Below are positions 4,101 to 25,162 of a stretch of DNA of 27,214 nucleotides, in pieces. Made by a program: the position numbers and the translations under genes. Each line of letters opens with the position of its first letter. The first letter of the stretch is position 1. A model generated the notes under the pieces. It saw only the letters and a list, made by a program, of their open reading frames with translations, made no database searches and was not told where the DNA came from. Origin of the DNA: Mitosporidium daphniae (lineage: Eukaryota > Microsporidia); contig NW_013546160.1 of assembly GCF_000760515.2 (NCBI RefSeq), forward strand, positions 1 to 27,214. Direction: 5' to 3'.

Positions 4101-7100
4101 GCATGTGCAGTATGTTTCTCCAAAATCGGTGCACAGCACAAAATCCTACGTGCAGGAGCTTGCAATTTGGTGTGCAAACATTTTCTTATATCTTTCGGAG
4201 ACCGACTTGCGCGATCTTGTGCTGTTTAAAGAAAAGATTCTTCATTTTTTGGATATCTTTTTTTTCCAAATCGACTGCTATTTGGACTTACCATCGCCTT
4301 GCCACACCATGACCAGCTCGTTGACTTTAACGCTGGCTGATGAAAACGAGCTGGTGCTGCCATCGACGGTGTTCGAAAACTCCTATCCATTTGAGTTTTC
4401 CATTTGCCCGTATAATGGCATTTCCGTTATTTTCAGCACATTCCAGTTTAAATCGTCATCGAACCTGTCAACTGTGGAAATCCTTTCAGAAGAGCCATCT
4501 TGTTCATCGCTGAAAGTGAACATCAATGACATCAAGGGCATGGATGAGTCGTTCATATCCAGACCGTTCACCATTGATATCTTGTTGAACAATGCCAAGT
4601 CGACCATCGATATTTACGAGTGTCTGTCTTTCAGATTCCATGGTGCAAAGGCCAAATCAATCACCTTTTTGCTGTGCTTTCTGATGGAGTTTGTCCAGTC
4701 AATTCCATTGATCTTGGAGGGCGTACCTTGCAAAAAGGCAACCGAATTCGTTTTGCTTTTCAATGCGAAAAAGATTGTCGCTGAAATTGGTGCTGCAAAT
4801 TGTGAATCAATCTCACTGAGCATGCTAAATTGCTTGGCCCAAGCATTCAGCTCTGGCGGCAACAAAATGGACATTTTTTACTTTTTTGCAGGGTATTCGT
4901 TGAAATACAAGAACTATTGCATATCGGATGAAGACGTCATCGTGCCGAGCTTAATCGATAAAAGTCTGCTGGTTTTTGACCCATGCATTCTTGCAAACTT
5001 GGTGGACGGAAATACGCAAATATATTGTCCCAAAGCCCTGTCGCTTTATACGGCATCGCCTTTTCGAGGCCAGTTTTCGAGCGAAAAGACTTCCACGAAC
5101 GAGGGCAGCTCCTTCTGCATGGAGAGCGTGCAAAAATTGAACTTTTTCGTCCCATTTGTTTGCAAAATTTACGATGCTTCTGTTCTGCACCAGGCGTTCA
5201 ATTTTATTTTCAGTTCTATTCCCAAGAAGGACCTTGAGGCTATTATTGATCCCAAATCGTCTTTGTTGGTTTCAACGCGCTTATCGAGCATCGATGACAT
5301 CACGCTTTGCTCGCAGGTTTCGGTTGGCTTTTTGCAAGGGATTTACATCTTTTTACCCTTTGATTTCGATGCAGGCTCTTTCTATCTTTTCTGTACACAC
5401 ATGCGGTTCGCAAGCAACGCAAAATTTTTTGCCACGCCAAATGAAGAGAAAGAATACTTTCGCTGGAATGTAGCCGTGTCCAATCTTTGCTTCAGCGTCG
5501 ATCCGTCCATCATCATTAGCGATGGAGGGGGGGCTCTGATCAGCGATTCCTATTTGTTCCCATCTTTGCCAAAAGATTCAAACAGGCAGATTGTCACTCC
5601 GGTTTACTTGAATGTTTCCTTGGATGGCAAGCGAAAACATCCATCGCTCTCCGAAATATGGTCCAAAATCGAGGTATCAAAAGTGTGTGTAAACATCACG
5701 TCCAATGACATTTTGCTGCTTTGGAACCTTTCGTCCACGCTTTGTGCAAAAATAAAAACCGGCAATTGGATGATCCCATCAAGAGGCAGCGTTCCTCCAA
5801 TCGAGCTGGTCAACCAGATCTCTTTGGCTATTGCCGGGGTCGAGATTCTGGTGATTTTCGAGGACTATGCATTTACTGGCGAAAAGGAGATGCAACTCTC
5901 GTGTGCAAAGTCGGCCCACAAATCGACCCCACCGTCTCTTTCTTATTCTTGCCCGTTTTTGAAAGTTGTCATTCCAAAACTGGCCTTGGAAGATGCATAT
6001 TTCAAGGTTGAGAACATCCGGTTTTCAGAGGACGAGGAGGAAGAGCCGGAGCCCTTTGATCCGGATCTGAACGTTGAAGATGATTCCAATTCGATCCGCT
6101 TTGATGATGATGCAAACTCTTCGTATTCCGAATTTTTCTCTGACATTTCGGACGAACTTTGCAACCTTTTCGTCGTATTCACGATGGAGGTAAAAGTCGA
6201 TTATTTCAACTCTGATAACTCCACATGGGAGCCTCTGATCGAGACATGGCAGTTTACTGCCACCATCGATCGCAAGTGGTTGCGGGCGCTCAATATGACC
6301 ACGTCTACAGAGGTCACCATCTCATCGATGCACAATCTCGAGTTCTGTGTTTCGCAAGTCTTTTTGAAGTATGCCGCGCTGTATTTGCGCAGAATTTTCT
6401 CTCTCTGTAAGGACCTCGATTCGGTGGCTACAAACAGCAAAGGCCAGAGTGCTTGTTCTGCCCATGGGCAGAACTTGACATTCTTGGTGCGAAATGAAAC
6501 GGGCGTTGATCTCATGTTGTGGTCCAGCGATGGAGTGACGCCGACAGATAGCACATCTGGAGAGACAACTCCGACTGCCGTTGAAACCACGGAAATCTGT
6601 GATCGATTACAATCAGGCGAATCGCTGTATTGGAGATTTTCATCCTCGCGCGATCCCATCTTGAATGTGCATCTGCTGGAGGATCGGTTTCCGTTTGAAT
6701 CGATAAGGAACATCCCTGTTAACAAGTATCTATCGTCACTGTTTTTGTTGCGGCCGAGCATGGATGGCATCAAGCATTTTATTGTTGCCGAGGTTTCAAG
6801 CTATAACCTGGCATCGGCGGCCCGGATGGCAGGGCAACCTGCAACATCGGCGGCTTGGCCCTCAAAATTTAGCGCCTCATCCACGCTTCCAGTGTCAAGC
6901 CTGGGCTCGACTTTTGATCCACATTGTGCTTCGTTCGCCCTGCATGATCCCATTACATATGCAAAGCGCATCGATATCAGCTCTGCACTACAGCTGCAAA
7001 ATCACACAGATATCGTCTTCGAGGTGATGTTTTTCATCCCAGATCGGCTGTTTCAGAGCCGCGAGTTGGCTTCGTTTCTGATTCCACAGATTTATGTTCT

Positions 7101-19077: not shown

Positions 19078-19150
19078 GGTCCCATAGCACAGTGGTAGTT
19101 GCGACTGCCTCGTAAGCAGTAGGCCGCGAGTTCGATCCTCGCTGGGACCT
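19078..19150 (+). tRNA. tRNA-Thr (anticodon CGU)
   Basis: A complete 73-nt cloverleaf with no intron. Acceptor stem GGTCCCA pairs with TGGGACC. The D arm is GCAC...GTTGC. The anticodon stem ACTGC/GCAGT encloses loop CTCGTAA, giving anticodon CGT, which reads ACG (Thr). The T arm is GCGAG-TTCGATC-CTCGC. Internal Pol III promoters are visible: A box TAGCACAGTGG and B box GAGTTCGATCC. It sits between the wee1 start and the U2AF35 stop, transcribed opposite to both. Confidence 0.97.
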
Positions 19151-20566: not shown

Positions 20567-21560
20567 TTATATAGTTACATTTGTGTGCTGTCTTGAATAA
20601 ATATACTCATCGAGCAGGAGTGCTCCTTGCTCCGAAATTTTCCTTACCGCTTCCAAATCATGCTCGAAGATAGAAAGATCCCTAATGGAATCCTGGATGT
20701 GAAAGGGCCCAATTCTGGTTCTTTCAAGAAAAGTGAGCATGCCAAACGTGCCGAGCTCTGCCGAAATATCTCGCACTAGCGATCGAATATATGTGCCCCC
20801 CATGCAGTCAACAGATAGTGTAATAAAAGGAGGGTCAACATTGACAATCGAAATACTATTAATGGTAACGGGCCTGGCATCCAAGTCGGGAATCTCAATT
20901 CCCCTCCTCATCAAGTCGCATGCCCTCGTTCCATTAACTCTCAATGCTGAAAACCTGGGACGATAAGAGATGAAAAGTGAGTACTTTGGCGGGACTTGGA
21001 GGATATTGTGGCCAATAAATTTCCTAACCACATCCTGAAGCCTAGTTGGGTCAAATATGTCACGAGAAAGAGATTCCGAGCGATCGACTATATTTCCAGT
21101 GGCATCAAGGGTATCGGTACCTTCGCCCAATTTCATGATTGCCGTATAGGACTATTGACGTTAACATTTCAAACATCTGTACCTTGGGGCCTTGCAATAG
21201 AGTTCCTAGCTTTTTAGTACCGGAGCCCAGCCCAACGACGACTATACCCTGTGCCATTGGATCCAAGGTTCCACCGTGTCCAATTTTGCCCAAAACAGAA
21301 AGAATATGCCGTTTTGAAGCGTTCCGCTGCGCACCCTCGCTTCCGAAAGAAATTGGATGAGACTTGCAGTATGCCGACCATAATTTGGTATGTAAATTGT
21401 AAACAAATGGATTTGTAATTCGGAGGGAAGGCTTAAATACAGAAAGTATGCCATTAAGGTTTATGGAATCAAAGAAATAATTGTTCACGATGTCGTCTGA
21501 GTTGAAAGCCCCATGTTTTCCGATGGGGAGCAGCCTGGAATTAGGTAGATGCCTGAACAT
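20567..21560 (-). CDS. PUS4: tRNA pseudouridine synthase, TruB/Pus4 family
   Basis: Makes pseudouridine at position 55 in the T loop of cytosolic and mitochondrial tRNAs. Two exons, 21560-21183 and 21151-20567, joined across a 31-nt intron (21152-21182), give 320 aa. TruB motifs in order: LNGILSVFKPSLRITN (motif around the start of the fold), GKIGHGGTLDPMAQG (motif II with the catalytic Asp in GTLDP), GSGTKKLG, SYTAIMKLGEGTDTLDATG rebuilt exactly at the splice junction, PPKYSLFISYRPRFSALRVNGTRA and GGTYIRSLVRDISAELG. The extra length between KPS and the catalytic loop fits eukaryotic Pus4, not bacterial TruB. The start at 21560 is the first Met before the domain. Confidence 0.94.
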
Positions 21561-21702: not shown

Positions 21703-21999
21703 TTATCCGGCCTTGATCTTTTCAATACATGATAGCGAGACGGAAAACAAACCCCTGGCAAAGTATTTTATAAAATGCCATATGGTAACCGAATGATGCA
21801 GTAGAATTGCCAAAAGGAAAAACAGAATCATATATGCAACAATTTTTTCCATCGGTTCGAGCATGTAAAAAGAGGTGGCAAGCTCGAGCCTCAAATAACC
21901 ACGCTTCATTGCACTCAAAAAACTGCGGTTTTCAGATCGGCCTTTATTTTTTGGCACATAATCTGGGTAAAATTCGGTCATAGTAAAAATAAGGTTCAC
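21703..21999 (-). CDS. Small subunit of serine palmitoyltransferase (ssSPT-like)
   Basis: 98-aa membrane protein. The segment LRLELATSFYMLEPMEKIVAYMILFF matches the ssSPT signature (Y...T.LYMLEPWE...), followed by a hydrophobic helix (AYMILFFLLAILLHHSVTIW). Small subunits bind the Lcb1/Lcb2 core of serine palmitoyltransferase at the ER, raise its activity strongly and tune acyl-CoA choice. The canonical Trp of EPWE is Met here. A 25-residue polar N-terminus and a C-terminal extension (FARGLFSVSLSCIEKIKAG) make it longer than animal ssSPTs (about 70-76 aa). Translation could start at 21999 or at a second Met (21981). It is divergent from ORMDL, which controls the same enzyme. Family assignment rests on one motif and topology. 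Confidence 0.78.
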   Translation of the reverse strand: MNLIFTMTEFYPDYVPKNKGRSENRSFLSAMKRGYLRLELATSFYMLEPMEKIVAYMILFFLLAILLHHSVTIWHFIKYFARGLFSVSLSCIEKIKAG

Positions 22000-22063
22000 A
22001 AAATACTCTATTCATTTTGTTTTGACTGATGTTTGATAGATCTATCAAACCAAAATTTTTAAC
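22000..22063. promoter_or_regulatory. 64-bp shared promoter of ssSPT and ORMDL genes
   Basis: Only 64 bases lie between the two start codons. They contain the palindromic-looking GATAGATCTATC (22035-22046) roughly in the middle and AT-rich sequence on each side. Shared control of both genes is inferred from geometry alone. Confidence 0.5.
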
Positions 22064-22603
22064 ATGGAAAGGCAAAACCCAAATGCGGCCTGGCTTAGCC
22101 AGAGAGGAATTTGGGTAACAAGCCTGGTTCTGGTTATCTTCCTTAAGCTAACATTCTCGGCAAATATAGTTGGAGTTGAGGCATCTTGGACGCTAACAAC
22201 TGTTGTTTTCAACGTCGTCTGCTGGGTCTTTTTCCACAGGATTAAAGGGGTTCCGTTCGACGATGCTGGAATTCAGGGCGAATATGCATGCCTCACGCTT
22301 TGGGAACAATTAGAAGCGGCAGAAGAGGAAGGGCCAATAGGACTAAGAACCAAAAAGAAGCGGGTAATATGCGGTTCTCCCCAGCTCTCTCCGAGAGAGA
22401 TTCCCGACAGTGTTATCGGGGGAACAAGGCGATCAGCCATCAAGGCAGCAAGGACAAAGCGGTTTTTAATTGTACTCCCAATTGCGCTCTTCTTACTTAG
22501 CGCGCACAACTCACGCTATGGCATGCTTGCCTTTGCCTTGAATTTCACGTCAACGCTTTTAGTTCTTCTCCCAAAAATTTACAACTCCAAATTGGTGTCC
22601 TAA
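22064..22603 (+). CDS. ORM1: ORMDL/Orm family regulator of serine palmitoyltransferase, with internal insertion
   Basis: ER membrane protein that holds serine palmitoyltransferase in check in response to ceramide. The 179-aa product follows the family closely: NPNAAWLSQRGIW at the N-terminus, SWTLTTVVFN and FFHRIKGVPFDD after the first helices, GEYACLTLWEQLE, then TKRFLIVLPIALFLLSAHNS and LPKIY at the end, with four hydrophobic segments. In other ORMDLs WEQ is followed within about 10 residues by TPTRKFL. Here about 45 polar, basic residues intervene (22316-22466), including SPQLSPREIPDS. Two in-frame GT-AG options inside (21 or 48 nt starting at 22356) could shorten but not abolish this loop. 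ATG at 22064 is required for the conserved NPN. Confidence 0.95.
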   Translation: MERQNPNAAWLSQRGIWVTSLVLVIFLKLTFSANIVGVEASWTLTTVVFNVVCWVFFHRIKGVPFDDAGIQGEYACLTLWEQLEAAEEEGPIGLRTKKKRVICGSPQLSPREIPDSVIGGTRRSAIKAARTKRFLIVLPIALFLLSAHNSRYGMLAFALNFTSTLLVLLPKIYNSKLVS

Positions 22604-22645
22604 AATTATGCAAAAATAAATTGTAAAAATTGATGCAAAATTTTG

Positions 22646-22710
22646 AATTCCATTGGCTAAGACTAATTCCATTGGCCAAGACTAATTCCATTGGTCGAGA
22701 CTAATTCCAA
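22646..22710. repeat. 19-bp tandem repeat carrying inverted CCAAT boxes
   Basis: Three copies of a 19-bp unit (AATTCCATTGGCTAAGACT and close variants) at 22646-22664, 22665-22683 and 22684-22702, plus a partial fourth. Each full copy contains ATTGG, the reverse complement of CCAAT; the second (ATTGGCCAAG) is also near-palindromic. The array ends about 60 bp upstream of the HECT gene start, so it may act as an NF-Y/HAP-type promoter array. Similarity among copies is direct; the role is inferred. Confidence 0.85.
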
Positions 22711-22768
22711 TCAATTGCAATAACAATCATGTCCTTTCGTAGCCGTTTATTTCCTGTAGGAATATTTT

Positions 22769-25162
22769 ATGAAAAAACGGGAAAAAAAGAAAAAACGCAG
22801 ACACTCATGTGTATGTTGCGGGACCATAAACGCCTTTCCATATTCGGACTGCTTTTTATGCTGCGTATGTGAAACCATTACGGACCTTTCACTTACACAC
22901 ATGTATACTTCACAGTTCTCAGTATCGATCGACAAAAGTCTTATTCCAGGAACGGCAGAGTTTACTTCTGCTCTGATAGCCGCTCATGTAAGCGGAGATT
23001 TGGAAGAGGGTCGCTCTATTCTATTTTCGGGATTCTCATCGTCATTTGTTCTGGGGCTAGCATTTTCAAGAAGGACTCAAAGTGATCATGATTATAAGAC
23101 GATAATCGATAGCGAATCTTTTAATAACTTTTACTTTCAACTCACTGAGATGAAGTGCTCGTTTTTTACTCAAACACTGATGGCCTCTCTTGACCATTTG
23201 GTCAGACGGCCTGGTGTGCTAAATATGGAACAGGAAGCGAGCCCAGTGAGGTGGATTTTGGTGGCCCTTCTGACCCCTTTTCTCTCCAGGAAGAGATTGT
23301 CGATGGAGGGCACTTTTCACCACTCACTTGCAAGACGCCTCTTTTCGCTTTTAAGACAGGCCTGCTGGAAAAGAAAAAAAGACTTTCAACATAAAATCGA
23401 GCTGCATGCAAAATCACTAAAAGAAATTCCTAAAGGGAAGGCACATTCGGAAGAAAAAGCCCTCAAATCAACGGCTTCCTCCACGTCTATATTGAATAAA
23501 ATTCTCGACGCGCTTCCATTGCCACTTTTAAGGCGACTAGCGGAGCTTGCAAATTGGACCCTCAATGTGCGAATTGGAAGGATCTCTAGTGCTAATTGCA
23601 GCTCTGCAAAGGCAAAGGCCAAAATAATTGCTGGCGATTGGGTGATCCTTGCAGGCGCTTATATGCTGCAAATGATTTCAGAGTCTAATGGACGGGTTTA
23701 TCGAATGGAGCCCTCAGAACTTTATAGTATGGCCATCGACTTGATTCCGATTGAGGTTATTTTGGCGGACTGGCACCAGACTACCTGCTCAGTGTCTTTG
23801 AAAAATTTATTAGCTTCACGGGGCCAGCTCCGCTTATTTGGAGAAAAAAAGATGCTTCTTGCCAACCACCCAGGAATTATCTCATTGGGAATCAAGTCTA
23901 GGCTACTGGAGTCTGAGCTTTTCCCAAATGGATATGCTTCAGGATACCCTATTCCTCTTGTGGTAAGGATTCCTCGATCACCGCTGAGAGAGATGCTCCA
24001 TGCGTCCATTATCCAATTACTCAATGCAAGCCCCCCACAGCTTCGTGGGAGGATCAAGGTAGAGTTTCAAGGTGAGCCTGGAATCGATGCTGGGGGCTTG
24101 CTTCGTGAATGGCTGCAGCTTCTTATACATGCACTGATGGATCCTACCCTTGGTCTTTTTCAGGCAGATATTTGTGGATTTGAACTGAACGCACCCTGTG
24201 TCTGGTTCCACAGTGGTGAAAATTGCAGTCAAGGGGTATTTGAACTGGTGCATCTACTTGGGACAATCCTAGGGCTCTCCTTGAACAATGGAATTGTACT
24301 TGACCATAGACTTCCATTTGCACTCTTCAAAAAATTGCTTTCCCCGGACACAAATCCACCGGCATGCGTTTCAGCACACGGGGAATCTATGTCCTCTATC
24401 ACGTTGGATGATCTCTGGGAAATTGCGCCTACCCTTGCCCGCGGCCTTGGCCAGCTGTTGGATTATCACGGGGAAGCAGAGGTTGAAGATGTTTTTCAGC
24501 TTCAATTCACTGCTGGATTTTCCAAACCAGGCCCAGAAAAGAGAGAAATTATCGATCTTACCAATCGTGGATCCGAAATCGCTGTTACGGGGGAGAATCG
24601 CGAAATTTTCATCTCACTTTATCTTGAACATATCTTCCATCATCGTCCAGGAAACCACTGGACAAAGTTTCGAGACTCGTTCTACTCTACACTCAGCGGT
24701 TCGACAATTGCGCTGCTTTCGCCGCAAGAGTTAAAGCAGCTACTTTCTGGGGATCCTGCAGAGATCAGTATCGATCTTTTACGCTCCGTTGCACTCTATG
24801 AGGGATACTTGTCGGCCGAGCATCCAGTTTCTCTCTGGTTTTGGGATATTCTCACCTCATACTCTGCTGAAATGCGACGCAAGTTCCTCATCTTTGTAAC
24901 GGGTGTTGGACGTCTCCCTGCTGCCCTGGCTGCCGCTGGTGCTGCTGGCCATTCCGGCATGCCAAATCAACAGGGCCCTTGGGTTATTCGTCTCTGGGGA
25001 AGAGATGCAAGTTGGAAGAATCTCAGTGGAGGCGAATACCGCCCGCTTGGGCGGACATGCTTCAACCAGCTCTGCTTGCACAAGGGATATCCAGATATGG
25101 AGACTCTTCGACGTTTGCTCACAAACGCCATTGTCGAGTCCGAAGGTTTTGGTATCGAGTAG
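22769..25162 (+). CDS. HUL4: HECT-type E3 ubiquitin ligase, Hul4-like
   Basis: 797-aa single-exon ligase. A lysine/arginine-rich start (MKKREKKKKRRH) leads into a zinc-binding motif, SCVCCGTINAFPYSDC followed by CCVCETITDL, with Cys pairs near residues 14/17 and 31/34; this kind of N-terminal zinc motif is what recalls fungal Hul4-type ligases. The HECT domain occupies about residues 400-797: LRGRIKVEFQGEPGIDAGGL at the N-lobe start, ELVHLLGTILGLSLNNGIVLD, NREIFISLYLEH in the mid region, FVTGVGRLPA, and the C-lobe with catalytic Cys at about residue 764 in GRTCFNQLCLHKGY, ending EGFGIE. HECT ligases form a thioester with ubiquitin on this Cys before transfer. The ATG at 22769 is the one that includes the zinc motif. 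UBE3-class membership is an alternative label. Confidence 0.95.
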   Translation: MKKREKKKKRRHSCVCCGTINAFPYSDCFLCCVCETITDLSLTHMYTSQFSVSIDKSLIPGTAEFTSALIAAHVSGDLEEGRSILFSGFSSSFVLGLAFSRRTQSDHDYKTIIDSESFNNFYFQLTEMKCSFFTQTLMASLDHLVRRPGVLNMEQEASPVRWILVALLTPFLSRKRLSMEGTFHHSLARRLFSLLRQACWKRKKDFQHKIELHAKSLKEIPKGKAHSEEKALKSTASSTSILNKILDALPLPLLRRLAELANWTLNVRIGRISSANCSSAKAKAKIIAGDWVILAGAYMLQMISESNGRVYRMEPSELYSMAIDLIPIEVILADWHQTTCSVSLKNLLASRGQLRLFGEKKMLLANHPGIISLGIKSRLLESELFPNGYASGYPIPLVVRIPRSPLREMLHASIIQLLNASPPQLRGRIKVEFQGEPGIDAGGLLREWLQLLIHALMDPTLGLFQADICGFELNAPCVWFHSGENCSQGVFELVHLLGTILGLSLNNGIVLDHRLPFALFKKLLSPDTNPPACVSAHGESMSSITLDDLWEIAPTLARGLGQLLDYHGEAEVEDVFQLQFTAGFSKPGPEKREIIDLTNRGSEIAVTGENREIFISLYLEHIFHHRPGNHWTKFRDSFYSTLSGSTIALLSPQELKQLLSGDPAEISIDLLRSVALYEGYLSAEHPVSLWFWDILTSYSAEMRRKFLIFVTGVGRLPAALAAAGAAGHSGMPNQQGPWVIRLWGRDASWKNLSGGEYRPLGRTCFNQLCLHKGYPDMETLRRLLTNAIVESEGFGIE

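Follow-up and report, generated by a model that had tools for sequence, protein, structure and literature searches.

The 27,214-nucleotide stretch of Mitosporidium daphniae DNA analysed here (the window) carries two adjacent genes that are transcribed away from each other, one encoding an ssSPT-like small subunit of serine palmitoyltransferase (SPT) and the other an ORMDL protein. The gene pair is real, and the identities of its members, an activating small subunit and an inhibitory ORMDL, are well supported by Pfam profiles and, in the case of ORMDL, also by sequence and fold matches to solved structures. Judged by its alignments, the ORMDL protein is remodelled, with an N-terminal gate that is nearly absent and an internal insertion, both of which are kept in two close homologues. 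We propose, with a probability of roughly 0.48, that ssSPT and ORMDL are co-transcribed from a shared spacer region and that this ORMDL would act as a remodelled brake in which the inserted loop takes part in gating. If the pair is truly co-regulated, the arrangement would offer a simple way to hold an activator and an inhibitor in step; in our view, the remodelled ORMDL is a stronger novelty than the gene pair.

The two genes lie between a Pus4-type gene and a HECT ligase gene, with no intervening open frame of at least 80 aa (Table 1). Their adjacency and divergent orientation, as well as the positions of the YMLEPMEK, NPNAAW, WEQ and LPK motifs, had been described correctly in a sequence-only reading of this DNA. 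That reading also gave a gap of 64 bp and an ssSPT of 98 residues, both of which require an upstream GTG start; measured from ATG to ATG the gap is 82 bp, and the protein read from its ATG has 92 residues. We rejected the GTG start, since this is a eukaryotic gene and since the ssSPT of a relative (P0006) aligns from the ATG, that is, from the same MTE...YVPK segment (its own predicted start lies 8 residues earlier). Searches of the whole assembly (4,662,434 bases, or 4.66 Mb, in 147 contigs), conducted in six frames and exon by exon and to be read as lower bounds, returned one match to PF11779 and one to PF04061. Among 14 control genomes, all of them prokaryotes, PF04061 was matched in none and PF11779 in one, below its cut-off. 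A search of the assembly for microsporidian SSU returned nothing. No description of the ssSPT-ORMDL linkage appeared among the literature matches listed, in a search outside subscription papers and preprints. The terms ORM, Tsc3 and 'small subunit' are absent from the main text of a survey of fungal sphingolipid proteins (PMC13161914), as far as that text was open to a term search, so the survey does not cover this question.

Table 1. Features of the ssSPT-ORMDL interval and its neighbours (window coordinates).
Feature	Position	Strand	Remarks
TruB/Pus4-type pseudouridine synthase, 3' neighbour of ssSPT	20567..21560	-	profile match
ssSPT-like small subunit of serine palmitoyltransferase	21703..21981	-	92 aa, PF11779
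Spacer between ssSPT and ORMDL ATGs	21982..22063	.	82 bp, 24% G+C
Perfect 20-bp palindrome GTTTGATAGATCTATCAAAC	22031..22050	.	13 bp before ORMDL ATG, 49 bp before ssSPT ATG
ORMDL	22064..22603	+	179 aa, single open frame, PF04061
Shortened ORMDL N-terminus	22064..22075	+	4 residues before Asn5 (= human Asn11)
ORMDL insertion, ~40 aa after WEQLE (~residues 89-129)	22328..22450	+	homologue alignment
HECT ubiquitin ligase, 3' neighbour of ORMDL	22769..25162	+	profile match; synteny control

Besides the HECT gene, VPS13-, NAP- and U2AF-like genes are found in the window (the U2AF-like label is our own reading of CCCH and RRM matches), and a tRNA-Thr (CGT) gene lies at 19078-19150, between a kinase-like gene and the U2AF-like gene. 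The Pus4/TruB-type gene contains a probable 31-nt intron (21152-21182) with TTAAC ahead of its 3' AG, suggesting that the genome may commonly use very short introns. Inspection by eye also located three tandem units of ~21 bases containing CCATTGG between ORMDL and HECT (22640-22715), directly upstream of the HECT ATG, whose complementary strand reads as a CCAAT-box-like core.

The family call for the ssSPT-like protein rests on its Pfam profile: PF11779 matched with an E-value of 3.3e-9 and 36.7 bits against a curated cut-off of 29.8, and its homologue P0006 reached 33.6 bits. Among solved chains, human SPTSSA was the only molecule matched, with E-values of 0.42 and 1 that are not significant, nor did a profile built from the two sequences reach significance against SPTSSA (E 1.1); Tsc3, to which the YVP segment may bear some resemblance, was unmatched in the sequence searches against solved chains. 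The structural model (mean pLDDT 74.8) consists of two helices, residues 15-39 and 43-91, with a break at YMLEP. The small-subunit assignment of the sequence-only reading was upheld by the profile but gained no ssSPT chain among the matches of its model in Foldseek and VIA, for which a short all-helical model is a weak test. In an alignment that is not significant by E-value, Met40 is paired with Met28 of human SPTSSA, a residue linked to acyl chain length. Given this position, and since a methionine of ssSPTa is reported to project into the tunnel for the substrate (PMC10550967), a preference of the ssSPT-containing enzyme for C16-CoA is conceivable. Activation of Lcb1/Lcb2 by the ssSPT-like protein is predicted.

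The proposed co-regulation would start from the notion that ssSPT and ORMDL are the activating and inhibiting subunits of one SPT complex and that both would be transcribed, in opposite directions, out of a single AT-rich spacer. In so small a spacer the core promoters should overlap or abut, and for this reason both genes would most likely respond to the same region of open chromatin; perhaps a dimeric factor bound to the palindrome acts on both. The outcome would be a coordinated supply of the two regulators, with the catalytic subunits set elsewhere. We infer the co-transcription, the role of the palindrome and the role of the loop, and consider co-regulation plausible, roughly even with passive linkage. 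The idea of the sequence-only reading that a shared promoter would fix the activator:inhibitor ratio is speculation; it is weakened by the presence in the window of an equally close divergent pair and by the location of the catalytic subunits on other contigs, as a result of which the ssSPT-ORMDL linkage does not set the dose of the regulators relative to the enzyme.

It is quite possible, if somewhat short of even odds, that the adjacency arose by chance in a compact genome and has persisted through slow change of synteny, the two genes being functionally uncoupled and having promoters that abut but are separate. A short gap is ordinary here, since the U2AF-like and TatD genes of the window form another divergent pair 89 bp apart. 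With ~1,900 genes in the genome (our own estimate, from 11 genes counted in the window) two given genes would be neighbours at a rate of ~0.1%, yet a genome holds very many related pairs, some of which are bound to end up side by side by chance. The relatives bear on the same point. Four ORMDL proteins, including the window's own, were found among 272 candidates (P0002, 81% identity; P0003, 77%; P0004, 40%), while both ssSPT candidates were homologues, one being the window's own and the other P0006 (62%). P0002 and P0006 come from the same source and both list a longest contig of 104,208 bp, a figure also listed by the HECT homologue P0009 (71% identity over 57% of the query; three proteins found), from which we infer that the ORMDL, ssSPT and HECT homologues share one 104,208-bp contig, a linkage at the level of the contig. 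The conserved adjacency that the sequence-only reading had looked for in relatives is borne out to this extent, as contig-level linkage with HECT in one relative. A pair kept while its flanks were rearranged was not seen in this relative; the HECT neighbour is kept too, which points to general synteny rather than to selection for the pair, and the linkage may be passive, kept along with its neighbourhood as slow change of gene order alone would give. For P0003, whose longest contig is 8,172 bp, no ssSPT homologue was found among the two candidates, and further relatives were confirmed neither among viral contigs (18 pattern stretches) nor among genome contigs (52). Three observations weigh against chance adjacency: the palindrome in the spacer, a second sphingolipid pair in the same genome, and the persistence of the linkage at identities of 62% (ssSPT) and 81% (ORMDL).

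The second pair emerged from the other sphingolipid genes of the assembly. PF00155 has six matches, among which one of two matched frames on contig C58 is Lcb2 (L006:1480-1887; best solved match human SPTLC2, 1e-34) and a frame at the C70 locus is Lcb1 (L007:1001-1507; best solved match human SPTLC1, 9e-43); the enzyme targeted by both regulators is thus present, encoded on other contigs. Lcb2 and a PAP2_C gene of SMS/SMSr type (L006:53-939, corresponding to ~20886-21772 of C58 in assembly G000; best solved match SMSr, 3.6e-7) are arranged tail to tail, the 3' ends of the two open frames overlapping by ~97 bases (last Lcb2 frame assigned by eye). An interaction of SMSr with SPTLC2, and regulation of SPT by SMSr, have been reported in mouse (PMC12594915). 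By contrast, and in support of chance, no sphingolipid neighbour was recognised (by eye) beside Lcb1, the ceramide synthase on C88 or the fatty-acid hydroxylase on C133, the last of which has an N-terminus that we labelled by eye as cytochrome-b5-like. Two further TRAM/LAG1/CLN8 matches, C47:400-849 and C84:31174-31623, have identical score and span and are possibly one locus assembled twice. Ceramidase (PF05875) had no match in the assembly and none in the control, and short-chain dehydrogenases (PF00106), where a ketosphinganine reductase might be found, had eight matches. With a set of eight sphingolipid-related genes (Lcb1, Lcb2, ssSPT, ORMDL, PAP2_C, two TRAM/LAG1 matches taken as C88 and C47/C84, and the fatty-acid hydroxylase; a second, weak PAP2_C match is not counted) among ~1,900, ~0.03 adjacent pairs would be expected by chance and two are seen. 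This excess is only suggestive, because one of the two pairs prompted the search in the first place.

The assignment of ORMDL is supported by the PF04061 profile, which scores 120.7 bits (E 5.2e-35; cut-off 27), and by a structural model that, at a modest confidence (mean pLDDT 62.2), matched 13 ORM chains from human, yeast and plant at a Foldseek probability of 1.00; by sequence, the closest solved ORM is yeast Orm1 (114.6 bits). The ceramide-contacting asparagine (human Asn13) corresponds to Asn7 of the NPN motif and is kept in all four aligned sequences, the query included. In alignments to solved ORMs, Asn5 of the same motif falls on human residue 11, Arabidopsis residue 15 and residue 74 of yeast Orm1, so that the 4 residues that precede it here compare with 10, 14 and 73, respectively. 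Four residues precede this asparagine in all three close ORMDLs (query included) and two in P0004, the starts of the database homologues being predictions; in the window, an in-frame TAG (22037-22039) precedes the ORMDL ATG with no other ATG between them. A gate of the human type, with ~10 residues before Asn11 and an Asn2 reaching the acyl-CoA site, is not found in this ORMDL, and the positions of human Arg15 and Tyr91 are occupied in the alignment by Ala9 and Ala85. The insertion follows shortly after the residue aligned with Tyr91, is common to P0002 and P0003 and absent from P0004 (whose C-terminus is longer), and carries Ser105-Pro and Ser109-Pro in all three close sequences; in the model it is of low confidence (disordered), with residues 90-120 under a pLDDT of 50. 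Reading the insertion as an unspliced intron was rejected, as none of 10 in-frame GT-AG combinations (24-240 nt, between 22294 and ~22485) contained a branch-like motif and both P0002 and P0003 carry the segment in their protein sequences.

The N-terminal arrangements by which ORM proteins hold SPT in check differ from one another in human, plant and yeast. In human SPT, ORMDL3 extends its N-terminus into the substrate site; Asn13 binds ceramide, Asn11, Arg15 and Tyr91 are engaged in polar contacts at the N-terminus, and complexes with ORMDL3-deltaN2, -deltaN8 or -deltaN17 are reported to be considerably more active, with inhibition by C6-ceramide nearly abolished (PMC10261145). In Arabidopsis, part of the N-terminal 14 residues of ORM1 forms an inhibitory sheet with LCB2a, and with purified SPT the deltaN14 truncation abolishes inhibition while deltaN8 largely relieves it (PMC10058238). 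Since only 4 residues precede Asn5 here, the near loss of ceramide inhibition with human deltaN8 and its loss with plant deltaN14 make it worth considering that the present ORMDL has ceased to inhibit SPT and is now a scaffold that binds ceramide, in which case the two genes would not form an activator-inhibitor pair. We regard this as unlikely. In HEK293 cells plant ORM1-deltaN14 still represses SPT, albeit much less (PMC10058238), so inhibition can survive the shortening of the N-terminus, a point that also counts against our main proposal; the N-terminus of yeast Orm1 carries phosphosites and points away from the active site without forming a plug, and the yeast Orm proteins are reported to be negative regulators nonetheless (PMC10550967), which means that an N-terminal plug is not universal. 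The present protein, moreover, keeps the ceramide-binding asparagine and has gained a long insertion near the gate. This ORMDL may inhibit SPT in another way: in the brake that we propose, the ceramide-contacting asparagine would be kept, the N-terminal gate reduced to a stub, and the ~40 residues with conserved Ser-Pro after WEQ would have taken over, or would modulate, gating. A more specific version, in which a palindrome-controlled divergent promoter supplies both proteins and an internal, Ser-Pro-phosphorylated loop gates SPT in a fourth way after loss of the N-terminal gate, seems quite unlikely. A natural ORMDL that lacks most of the N-terminus and bears a conserved loop offers a ready test of the parts needed for ceramide feedback.

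The palindrome in the spacer is a candidate shared element. When the spacer was simulated 200,000 times with a first-order Markov model, arms of at least 10 arose in 0.05% of the runs, a test made after the palindrome had been noticed. Its use as a genome-wide operator was considered and is unsupported, the 16-base core occurring exactly only once in the assembly (two further matches have 2 mismatches each). A second perfect 20-bp palindrome, GTTCTGCCCATGGGCAGAAC, lies at 6455-6474 inside the VPS13-like coding frame, making two in the window against 0.035 expected, and 14 other loci, 74,357 bases in all, held none with arms of 10. Palindromes of this size are thus rare in this DNA, though the coding example need not be regulatory. 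That the palindrome, which lies close before the ORMDL ATG and could fold into a stem of 8 bp capped by a GAUC loop, acts instead as an RNA hairpin in the ORMDL 5' leader and tunes translation of ORMDL alone is very improbable, as the whole spacer folds no better than its shuffles (z -0.60, with 53 of 200 as good).

Comparison with known systems places both parts of the proposal. Co-transcription of ssSPT and ORMDL would recall the bidirectional promoters of functionally related divergent genes, with which the pair has a short common spacer in common. To our knowledge, neither the human ssSPT and ORMDL genes nor the yeast Tsc3 and Orm genes are linked. The human complex (SPTLC1/SPTLC2/ssSPTa/ORMDL3) is matched in the YMLEP of ssSPT and its methionine at the position of SPTSSA Met28 (in the non-significant alignment), and in the ORMDL fold and its ceramide-contacting asparagine; unlike human ORMDL3, the present protein has an N-terminus 6 residues shorter, the ~40-aa insertion after WEQ, and a shorter C-terminus. 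The yeast SPOT complex (Lcb1/Lcb2/Tsc3/Orm1-Orm2) likewise has an extra ORM segment with potential phosphosites, but its Tsc3 is unmatched by sequence, and the extra segment and its Ypk sites are described as N-terminal in yeast (PMC10550967), whereas the segment is internal here. The Arabidopsis SPT-ORM1 complex, finally, shares the same ORM core fold, but its ORM1 places 14 residues, rather than 4, before the equivalent asparagine.
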